A stretch of DNA of 31,145 nucleotides, from the NCBI GenBank assembly GCA_017435245.1, contig JAFSFK010000009.1, positions 1 to 31,145 on the forward strand, read 5' to 3'. The position numbers were made by a program, and so were the translations under genes. Source of the stretch: Oscillospiraceae bacterium (GTDB lineage Bacteria; Bacillota; Clostridia; Oscillospirales; Oscillospiraceae). Below the pieces are notes generated by a model. It searched no databases, had not been told where the DNA came from, and saw nothing but the letters and a program-made list of their open reading frames with translations. Numbering within the stretch: the stretch's first letter is position 1; each line of letters begins with the position of its first letter. Below are positions 19,362 through 31,145 of this stretch, piece by piece.

Positions 19362-19567
19362 ATTCCGGTTTGCCGAGCAGTTGGATAGAACCTGTAGGGG
19401 CGGATATTATCCGCCCGGTGGTTTTGCAAAACAAAACCATATCGCCGAAGGCGATCATATATGATTTCCTTCGGAAATCCCAATAATTTGCACACAAATT
19501 ATTGGGCGGGCGATTGATAATCGCCCCTACAATTCTTATCGAAAACTGCTCGACAAACCGGAATTTG
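19362..19567. repeat. Palindromic repeat element 3 (GTAG-headed REP pair) in common outer arms
   Basis: Outer arms at 19362-19382 (ATTCCGGTTTGCCGAGCAGT) and 19544-19567 match as inverted repeats at about 20 of 21 positions. Inside, GTAG plus the 9-base stem GGGCGGATA-T-TATCCGCCC lies at 19394-19417 on the plus strand. The minus-strand partner at 19508-19530 is GTAG plus GGGCGATT-ATC-AATCGCCC. The centre adds further palindromes (GGTTTTG-CAAAACAAAACC; TCGCC-GAAGGCGA; CCAATAATTTG-CACACAAATTATTGG). The plus-strand REP is identical over 24 bases to one inside the RAYT gene (30447-30470). The element occupies nearly all of the 244-base rplI-dnaB gap and would be transcribed as a large hairpin. Confidence 0.85.
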
Positions 19568-24690: not shown

Positions 24691-24902
24691 AATACCAGTT
24701 TATCGAGCAGTTGCGACACTCCGCCAAAGGCCCCCTTGTGTAAAGGGGGCTGTCGAAAATCTTTGATTTTCGACTGGGGGATTGTCAAAAACCGTTAATT
24801 TACAACCCCTCCGTCTGAAATCACAGATTTCAGACACCTCCCCTTACACAGGGGCGGCTTTGGATTGTGCACCTAACAAACAGCTCGATAAACTGGAATT
24901 TG
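24691..24902. repeat. Palindromic repeat element 4 (CCCCCTT hairpin type) in common outer arms
   Basis: Outer arms lie at 24691-24713 (ACCAGTTTATCGAGCAGTTG) and 24881-24902 (CAGCTCGATAAACTGGAATT). The left inner unit at 24724-24754 contains GCCCCCTT-GTGTA-AAGGGGGC. The right inner unit at about 24835-24864 contains CTCCCCTTACACAGGGGCGG and ends in GCTTTGG. A central palindrome is TCTGAAATCACAGATTTCAGA. It is the same family as element 1 (1499-1724), with diverged sequence but the same order of parts. The 341-base gap 24650-24990 holds this element, the terminator before it and a promoter after it, and no gene. Confidence 0.8.
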
Positions 24903-30284: not shown

Positions 30285-30308
30285 GGGAACGGGAGACACG
30301 TCCCCTAC
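30285..30308 (-). repeat. GTAG-headed REP-like hairpin upstream of the RAYT gene
   Basis: On the minus strand, GTAG (30305-30308) is followed by GGGACG...CGTTCCC (30285-30304), an imperfect hairpin with one bulged base. It sits 24 bases before the transposase start. REP copies flanking RAYT genes are a known hallmark of these systems. Confidence 0.6.
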
Positions 30309-30332
30309 AAAAGAAATAAAGGGTGTATGCCG

Positions 30333-30818
30333 ATGGATCTTCCGCAAAGAAAACCCAATCGAATAGAGGCTTATGATTACAGTCTGAACGGTGCGTATTT
30401 TGTTACCGTCTGCACCCGGGACAGAGAGAAAATTTTCTGGGATATCGTAGGGGCGGATATTATCCGCCCGCAAAATGTACCGCTATCCTCTATTGGAGAA
30501 ATAGCGGTACAGGCGATTTGTCAGATTCCAAAGCATTATGAAAATGTATTCGTGGATAAATACTGCGTTATGCCTGATCACGTTCATTTGATTCTGCGTA
30601 TTGAACTAGAGATGGACGGGCGGATAATATCCGCCCCTACAGTATCGACTGTAGTTGGCTCAATGAAACGATGGACATCCAGACAAATCGGCAGACCCAT
30701 TTGGCAAAAATCCTACTATGACCATGTGATTCGAAACCAAAAGGATTACGACGAAATATGGCAATACATTGATAATAATCCGAGGAAATGGTTGATACAA
30801 AACGGTGGCGATGAATAA
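30333..30818 (+). CDS. REP-associated tyrosine transposase (RAYT, Y1_Tnp family)
   Basis: 161 residues from ATG 30333 (AAAGGG 9 bases upstream); ATG 30327 is the alternative. RAYTs are single-strand nucleases related to IS200/IS605 TnpA that recognise GTAG-headed hairpins. Visible parts are the N-terminal IEAYDYSLNGAYFVTVCTRD strand, the HUH motif in MPDHVHLIL (H83, H85), and the C-terminal WQKSYYDHVIRNQKDYDEIW followed by QYIDNNPRKW. Y145 in that last segment aligns with the catalytic tyrosine of the E. coli RAYT. The frame is intact and includes two REP sequences (30447-30470 and 30617-30640), translated as VGADIIRP and DGRIISAPT in probable surface loops. The gene is a single copy here, between the XRE-operon terminator and a shared hairpin. 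Confidence 0.92.
   Translation: MDLPQRKPNRIEAYDYSLNGAYFVTVCTRDREKIFWDIVGADIIRPQNVPLSSIGEIAVQAICQIPKHYENVFVDKYCVMPDHVHLILRIELEMDGRIISAPTVSTVVGSMKRWTSRQIGRPIWQKSYYDHVIRNQKDYDEIWQYIDNNPRKWLIQNGGDE
30447..30470 (+). repeat. REP hairpin inside the RAYT reading frame, copy 1
   Basis: GTAG followed by GGGCGGATA-T-TATCCGCCC and a final G. It is identical over all 24 bases to the intergenic REP at 19394-19417 and the exact reverse complement of 30617-30640. It encodes VGADIIRP without breaking the frame. Confidence 0.9.
30617..30640 (-). repeat. REP hairpin inside the RAYT reading frame, copy 2 (inverted)
   Basis: The minus strand reads GTAG followed by GGGCGGATA-T-TATCCGCCC and a final G, a perfect inverted copy of 30447-30470. 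The pair encloses 146 bases that include the codons for the HUH motif. On the plus strand it encodes DGRIISAPT in frame. Confidence 0.9.
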
Positions 30819-30874: not shown

Positions 30875-31063
30875 TTACTTCAGGGACTCTTCAACAGCAA
30901 CAGCCACGGAAACGGTCATACCGACCATGGGGTTATTGCCTGCGCCCAGGAAGCCCATCATTTCCACGTGAGCGGGGACGGAGGAAGAACCAGCGAACTG
31001 TGCATCACCGTGCATACGGCCCATGGTGTCGGTCATGCCGTAGGAAGCGGGACCTGCAGCCAT
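30875..31063 (-). CDS. GGGtGRT-type protein, C-terminal fragment (62 residues)
   Basis: Only the last 62 residues are present, MAAGPASYGMTDTMGRMHGD onwards, ending AVAVEESLK. From memory this matches the C-terminus of the conserved roughly 330-residue GGGtGRT protein family of anaerobes, where these residues follow a TGRTLHPDN segment. Function is unknown. The methionine at 31063 is not a natural start: no ribosome site lies before it, and the expected upstream codons are absent. Reading further upstream on this strand gives four unrelated codons (F, L, L, K) and then a stop at 31076-31078. The break coincides with the start of an unrelated coding sequence at 31066, so the truncation is probably an assembly artefact. 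Confidence 0.7.
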   Translation of the reverse strand: MAAGPASYGMTDTMGRMHGDAQFAGSSSVPAHVEMMGFLGAGNNPMVGMTVSVAVAVEESLK

Positions 31064-31065
31064 CT

Positions 31066-31145
31066 TTAAAAGAAATTAGCGATATCCGTGATGAGACAGA
31101 TAAGTCCGGTCTTAAAATTACTATTGACTTAAAACGTGGTGTAGA
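31066..31145 (+). CDS. Type IIA DNA topoisomerase subunit A (GyrA/ParC) internal fragment
   Basis: The plus-strand frame from 31066 reads LKEISDIRDETDKSGLKITI followed by DLKRGV, cut by the window end. This is the well-conserved KxxEIxDxRDExDxxGxxIxIxLKRG segment of GyrA/ParC, normally about 260-300 residues into the protein. There is no start codon and no N-terminal part; the frame joins directly to the end of the oppositely oriented GGGtGRT-like fragment. Base use is more AT-rich than nearly all of the window. GyrA and ParC cannot be told apart from so short a piece. Most likely it belongs to another locus or another genome. Confidence 0.65.

Follow-up and report, generated by a model that had tools for sequence, protein, structure and literature searches.

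Near the end of a 31,145-nt contig stretch from an Oscillospiraceae bacterium (JAFSFK010000009.1; the whole stretch is here called the window), a RAYT transposase gene carries two inverted copies of a GTAG-footed REP hairpin inside its own reading frame. This raises the question whether the hairpins are kept as DNA or as peptide, and what role a pair of presumed targets might play within the gene of the enzyme. A gene with its own presumed target in two copies makes both RAYT-REP matching and the restraint of RAYTs directly testable. The features concerned are:

30327..30818, + strand: RAYT / TnpA-REP-like HUH tyrosine transposase gene, 163 aa, HUH formed by H85 and H87
30765-30767, + strand: presumed catalytic Tyr, Y147, of the RAYT gene 30327-30818
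30285..30308, - strand: upstream REP-like hairpin GTAGGGGACGTGTCTCCCGTTCCC, of a stem type other than the in-gene GGAT
30447..30470, + strand: N-side in-gene REP GTAGGGGCGGATATTATCCGCCCG, GTAG foot, 8-bp stem and 3-nt loop, coding for residues 41-48 (VGADIIRP)
30471..30616, + strand: inter-REP segment, 146 nt, encoding the HUH motif
30617..30640, - strand: in-gene REP on the C-side, GTAGGGGCGGATATTATCCGCCCG as in the N-side copy but inverted (exact reverse complement), coding for residues 98-105 (GRIISAPT)
19394..19417, + strand: intergenic REP of GGAT type, identical to the N-side in-gene copy
19508..19530, - strand: GATT-type REP that pairs with 19394-19417 as an inverted, REPIN-like heterodimer

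The protein read from ATG 30327 (the alternative ATG 30333 yields 161 aa, matching database entry P0001) combines a HUH motif (codons 30579-30581 for H85 and 30585-30587 for H87), a single Tyr and the RAYT fold, as expected of a RAYT / TnpA-REP protein, and its predicted fold is that of the REP-binding 4er8. It exceeded the curated cut-off of Pfam PF01797 (Y1 HUH transposase; 27.9 bits vs 23) and fell below that of NCBIfam NF047646 (REP_Tyr_transpos; 70.4 bits vs 80), and is therefore not filed under the latter family. The gene is associated with the GTAG-footed REP family of its genome, and it was the single RAYT match in a search of the 1.56 Mb assembly (63% complete). Further downstream, at about 31063-31145, the sequence changes abruptly in character near the contig end, by eye possibly a chimeric assembly join, and the reading frame running off the end there presumably resembles GyrA/ParC.

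Several properties bring the gene close to subclass 2.4 of the tnpA-REP genes as presented in the main text of Quentin et al. 2018 (PMC6006769), where this subclass is equated with RAYT group 4 of Bertels: an in-frame REP, a beta3-alphaC insertion, double-foot REPs, and the Table 1 signatures WQ (W126 Q127) and YIxNNP (YIDNNP, 147-152). In contrast, the HUH context reads DHVH instead of the subclass consensus NH[IFV]H (relatives have D or N), and we therefore name the gene subclass-2.4-like only. The subclass 2.4 taxa given in that text are Cyanobacteria, Bacteroidetes and various phyla, whereas the named relatives in our sample are mostly gut and rumen clostridia. In-frame REPs are described there as a unique feature of subclass 2.4, generally placed between HuH and Y, which leaves the frame undisrupted and possibly has minor consequences only. 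The end of alphaB is listed as the site of an 8-aa insertion, not termed a REP in the text considered, and it is suggested that a double-foot REP could be derived from an inverted dimer by central deletion. The text considered was found to contain no statement of a further REP ahead of HUH, of an inverted pair or of a matched change of two copies.

The two 24-mers were found at the coordinates originally predicted, as exact reverse complements whose arms can be extended to 30 nt at 93% identity. They flank the HUH codons and the frame stays open, as had also been claimed. Bertels and Rainey are said to have described inverted REP pairs as REPINs or BIMEs in 2011; the in-gene pair has the REPIN geometry of two inverted REPs with GTAG feet outermost, and differs from REPINs in that it is embedded in coding sequence and the HUH codons serve as its spacer. 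In the structure model, the N-side REP peptide falls into a low-confidence loop (residues 41-50, mean pLDDT 54) ahead of a predicted helix at 55-70, a position compared with the alphaB insertion of subclass 2.4 by description only. The C-side peptide lies between the modelled strand 85-92 and helix 106-121, matching the beta3-alphaC REP insertion described in PMC6006769. Alignment with the REP-free homologues L033, L037 and L043 revealed gaps at both peptide sites, so that the in-gene REPs represent clean, roughly 8-codon insertions, in agreement with the suggestion that they had entered loops. The gene is thus a subclass-2.4-like RAYT whose frame houses an inverted, REPIN-like REP pair as 8-codon insertions in two loops around HUH. 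Directly after the N-side REP, within the inter-REP segment, a further inverted repeat (TGTACCGCTAT / ATAGCGGTACA, 14-nt loop) occupies window positions 30476-30511.

The in-gene copies belong to a genomic REP family. The 24-mer was detected in 14 exact copies, the two in-gene ones included, and in 4 copies with 1-3 mismatches in the same 1.56 Mb, 63% complete assembly, in which the reversed control pattern had 0 matches, and thus the in-gene copies are not due to chance. GGAT-type REPs as a whole amount to 17 copies in this incomplete assembly, 2 of them inside the RAYT gene. The identity of the N-side copy with the intergenic REP at 19394-19417, noted in the original prediction, was verified. 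Extragenic REPs of this genome pair as GGAT/GATT heterodimers, in contrast to the GGAT/GGAT pair in the gene.

A pair within the coding sequence had been considered unusual, a view not supported by the homologues or by the in-frame REPs reported in the main text of PMC6006769. A protein search returned 1785 homologues, and 120 of the 120 listed (window included) encode VGADxIRP-like and GRxxSAPT-like peptides. Among 148 distinct RAYT ORFs, a GTAGGG hairpin was present on both sides of HUH in 71, in convergent orientation, only before HUH in 12, only after it in 19 and on neither side in 46. The corresponding numbers for the 73 ORFs from relatives of the window's genome (window included, mostly same genus) were 43, 8, 7 and 15. 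Since 46 ORFs lack the hairpin and 31 have only one, the pair is not required for the existence of a RAYT. Spacing between the two in-gene REPs ranged from 105 to 191 nt in the 71 paired genes. The hairpin searches required a GTAGGG foot and extended over 60-170 nt on the 5' side of the HUH codons and 20-110 nt on their 3' side. The set comprised one ORF per locus from L019-L205, with L070 included, an HUH match required and identical cores removed; it was drawn from relatives of the window's genome and named genome records, and sequence was taken for part of the RAYT matches listed (30 loci, some already known, and 52 stretches). Being picked by similarity to the window protein, the sample is not representative of RAYTs at large. 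An earlier hairpin comparison had kept 99 of 110 loci, leaving out those without an HUH match, with nine removed by hand as near-duplicates (L047, L056, L060, L070) or fragments (L038, L039, L040, L048, L112).

In-frame REPs of other layouts were also seen. L097, L103, L107, L120, L121 and L122, from records of Cloacimonadota, Magasanikbacteria, Calditrichaceae, Bacteroidales/Bacteroidia and Caldithrix, harbour in-frame REPs downstream of HUH that are perfectly or almost perfectly palindromic, consistent with subclass 2.4. L101 and L104 (Paucihalobacter and a Flavobacteriaceae MAG) carry perfect 20-nt palindromes, e.g. GGGCAAGTCGCGACTTGCCC, in frame before HUH, and the L114 RAYT ORF contains five copies of one REP within the open frame, four in the same orientation ahead of HUH and an inverted one behind it.

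Both in-gene peptides, with small variation, recur in every listed homologue, which would be expected if VGADIIRP and GRIISAPT were ordinary conserved protein sequence and the palindrome an accident. However, fourfold sites were identical in 757/868 comparisons within the N-side REP, 767/877 within the C-side REP and 2015/5372 elsewhere (comparisons that share ancestry and are hence non-independent), which corresponds to a synonymous-site identity of 87% inside the REPs vs 38% outside. Gene pairs were compared at the N-side only where the C arm was the same, at the C-side only where the N arm was the same, and elsewhere where either was alike; a first test with 8 genes chosen by their N-side arm was biased for the N-side REP, and the repeat was conditioned on the other REP only. 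Moreover, other lineages have different hairpins at these sites, which code for different peptides, partly in another frame. The stem types with an 8-bp stem and a 3-nt loop were GGAT, GAAC, GAGC, GACC, GATC, GGTC, GGCA, GCGC and GCAC, and further in-gene hairpins had a 9-bp stem with a 4-nt loop or an 8-bp stem with a 6-nt loop, so stem and loop of the REP unit vary relative to the unit in the window. The reading frame of the N-side REP split the 71 paired genes into 64 and 7, that of the C-side foot into 60, 10 and 1; because 7/71 N-side and 11/71 C-side REPs use another frame, the peptide looks like a by-product. Homologues retaining the peptides and lacking the palindrome, to which the original prediction had pointed as evidence of mere protein conservation, are thus not the picture obtained. 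We consider coincidence practically negligible, conservation at the protein level being ruled out by the fourfold sites, and the comparison shows that, as far as the sequences reveal, the in-gene hairpins are kept as DNA rather than as peptide.

The same comparison shows, at the sequence level, that changes of the N and C hairpins are mostly concerted and follow the RAYT lineage. N/C identity within a gene averaged 0.93 vs 0.55 between genes (71 genes; maximum of 10000 permutations, 0.63) and was at least 0.85 in 66/71 genes. Over the trimmed hairpin, N and C were identical in 23/71 pairs, the 8-nt arm differed in 22/71, and stem and loop lengths were equal in most genes. On a 70-row tree built with the REP-coded residues removed and L114 excluded for its long branch, the minimum numbers of stem-arm changes were 21 for N, 27 for C and 30 for both combined, compared to 48 for fully separate change; an earlier 37-row tree gave 18, 14 and 18. 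These are raw minima without a shuffled-label control, and many branches are weakly supported. Tests of independent pairs on the 70-row tree found at most a few supported pairs among the types listed, with significance out of reach. Within the resolution of the tree, REP type tracks the RAYT clade. Exceptions to the matched change were L020, L022 and L140, with GAGC before HUH and GACC after it, and L061, L063, L065 and L068, with GATT before and GGCA after, in which each hairpin is still paired. In the GGCGGCG class N and C mostly differ at one pair, and a few further genes differ. As mismatched copies each satisfy the hairpin criterion (at most 1 mismatch), the single hairpin rather than N-C pairing appears to be the unit.

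The match extends to REPs outside the gene. Within 400 nt, 63 REPs were counted beside 35 of the 71 genes, of which 37 have the same arm as the in-gene REP (permuted mean 6.5, maximum 20) and 26 do not. Across whole genomes the association is less tight. Extragenic GGAT copies were found in 8/9 genomes with the GGAT in-gene type vs 4/16 with another type (Fisher p 0.004; counted by hand with in-gene copies subtracted and G032 left out, with which the latter would be 5/17), and thus the link is to the gene's own REP type. G032 has 173 GGAT-type REPs, those listed being mostly dimers 85 nt apart, and the sole RAYT match found in it is without an in-gene REP pair. A rule that the in-gene REP is the commonest REP of its genome was ruled out by G008, where the C-side type GATC is outnumbered (12 vs 23 GGTC among the 38 rows listed). 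In G017 the N-side type GAGC is minor among the rows listed, compared to 21 copies of the C-side type GACC; the stem-type searches excluded G070, whose listed rows were those of G017. G061 has two exact in-gene copies and no further copy was found in its genome as examined, zero counts being weak because the genomes are mostly incomplete.

Broken genes point to the REPs as places of rearrangement. In L154 (G122; assembly as deposited), the N-terminal part is followed by one perfect double-foot REP and the C-terminal part, with the HUH segment lost, which looks like central deletion of an inverted REP dimer, here inside a RAYT gene. In L155, L156, L157 and L160 (L156 and L157 being two loci of the same genome, G151) the 5' part is gone, and the remainder begins at the C-side REP beside other REPs or upstream sequence. 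In L196 (G165:C51:9200-10700), the first two thirds of the gene are duplicated in tandem with a period of 331 nt, the duplication running from an upstream REP to the C-side REP, both in the same orientation, the reverse product of a deletion. The break lies at the hairpin apex of the N-side REP in L130 and L161, within the C-side REP in L158 and at its edge in L159 and L199; L201 is an insertion at the GTAG foot and L202 a loss just past the REP. L194, L197, L200 and L203 are broken away from REPs. The census started from 26 places with partial RAYT matches (under about 120 residues each), of which 17 were broken or rearranged and judgeable; L195, L198 and L204 (contig end), L205 (frameshift without in-gene REP) and L162-L166 (not truncated) were excluded. 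In 13/17 (L130, L154-L161, L196, L199, L201, L202), or 10/17 when L196, L201 and L202 are subtracted, a break or junction lay within a REP or at its margin. Against a rough 26% expectation, which assumes two uniform breaks per gene, binomial tests gave 1.9e-5 and 0.004, respectively; breakpoints being judged by eye and unblinded, these are indications only. The deletion scars lend indirect support only to self-targeting.

In our preferred explanation, to which we lean on balance, the gene harbours the enzyme's cognate target in cis, maintained at the DNA level and matched to the lineage, and REP-to-REP recombination deletes or duplicates parts of the gene. If the in-gene hairpins are the cognate target, as we infer, target and recogniser would stay matched as both drift. 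An in-gene REP would recombine with another REP in or beside the gene, through RAYT cleavage and rejoining on single-stranded DNA, through host slippage or through RecA, and part of the gene would be deleted or duplicated, loss of the HUH segment ending the activity of that copy. Recognition of the in-gene hairpins by the window enzyme is presumed here, as is any part of RAYTs, rather than ordinary slippage at palindromes or repeats, in producing the scars. According to the part of PMC8266576 considered, TnpA-REP acts on single-stranded REPs, cuts beside the hairpin and joins ends; if the window protein acts in the same way, its own gene would be a substrate whenever single-stranded. Against this explanation stand the ability of host slippage or recombination between palindromes and repeats to give such scars without a transposase, the in-gene types outnumbered in G008 and G017, the finding of no copy beyond the gene in the genome of G061 as examined, the other stem type of the hairpin upstream of the window gene, the GGAT/GATT pairing of extragenic REPs in its genome, the flanking REPs without the in-gene arm, and the ORFs with one hairpin or neither. 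A narrower version, in which the pair is a built-in self-inactivation switch and the RAYT excises the HUH segment from its single-stranded gene, leaving one fused REP, is in our estimation doubtful. With the target forming part of the enzyme's own reading frame, the two would then co-evolve, and the switch would cap transposase dose and help explain low RAYT copy number.

A role of the pair would be dispensable if REPs had inserted into surface loops of an ancestral RAYT that tolerated them, and had then been homogenised by REP recombination. This comes close to the view in the main text of PMC6006769 that such insertions may affect activity little, and fits the REPs known within unrelated genes (PMC3733652, section on intragenic REPs), the low-confidence loop predicted for the N-side peptide, the peptide content differing among lineages, and the ORFs without either hairpin. 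We nevertheless regard it as unlikely, though a serious contender, given that the same sites and orientation recur across lineages, that REP type tracks the RAYT clade within the resolution of the tree, that G061 retains two exact in-gene copies with none other found in its genome as examined, and that extragenic GGAT copies accompany the GGAT in-gene type. Pairing of the copies in the transcript, closing the HUH segment in a long hairpin that limits translation or stability, is rather improbable. mRNA folding had been suggested in the original prediction: the RNA of 30436-30651 is predicted to fold at -93.7 kcal/mol with the copies paired (z -8.1; 0/200 shuffles as stable), and the single-stranded DNA at -47 kcal/mol (z -6.9). 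Moreover, long-range RNA pairing would usually be possible because of the high N/C identity in 66 genes, and an effect of these predicted folds on expression is possible. However, the stems in L061, L063, L065 and L068 differ between the two sites, yet each hairpin stays paired, and RNA pairing alone needs no GTAG foot, the presence of GTAGGG being no evidence by itself because it was a search condition. Movement of the inter-REP segment as a cassette between loci, or mobilisation of a defective internal cassette as had been proposed, is very improbable. The GTAG feet are outermost, as in the genome's other REP dimers, and L154 is without the segment, but none of the matches listed was confined to residues 48-97, and a free inter-REP segment was found neither among the RAYT matches listed nor in the own genome with its one RAYT match; a mobile HUH cassette was rejected since no listed match lies solely between two REPs. 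Cassette and outer protein parts also diverge together (rho 0.41), a comparison without sign of exchange between RAYT lineages, the six pairs with most excess cassette identity involving long-branch rows (L114 five times, L053 once).

Like the REPtrons of Escherichia coli, Stenotrophomonas and Marinomonas treated in part of PMC8266576, the window gene is a transposase associated with GTAG REPs. The REPs described there lie beside the gene, whereas the window gene also has two inside, and it is group 4-like, not of the groups 2 and 3 whose enzymes and REPs were concluded to have co-evolved. Changes of GTAG were reported there as not tolerated in the E. coli system and partly tolerated in those of Stenotrophomonas and Marinomonas. 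According to the section on intragenic REPs in PMC3733652, REPs occur in many other genes, and Rickettsia palindromic elements are inserted in frame, twice in some ORFs, similar to the window gene; in contrast, these elements and intragenic REPs occupy genes of many functions at mostly varied sites, and this section makes no mention of a cognate transposase with a conserved matched pair. Neither RAYT nor transposase is mentioned in the main text of PMC12306157 (RepRanger, 2025). REPs lying in frame within RAYT genes were already published in 2018 (main text of PMC6006769), and in the open-access RAYT/REPIN literature searched no description was found of a paired in-gene REP with matched change.

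Synonymous recoding can separate DNA from protein constraints at the in-gene REP sites, and the arm common to most REPs beside such genes makes them a source of candidate enzyme/target pairs. Apart from this, a MITE-like element with terminal inverted repeats of about 20 nt (TTCCGGTTTGTCGAGCAGTT and variants) occurs in the window at 1503-1720, 19363-19563 and 24693-24898, and its terminal repeats had 54 forward and 56 reverse matches with at most 3 mismatches in the own genome (1.56 Mb, 63% complete). The GGAT/GATT REPIN 19394-19530 lies inside one copy of this element, and its right-hand repeat is located about 150-160 nt past the REP start at 6/18 REP loci.
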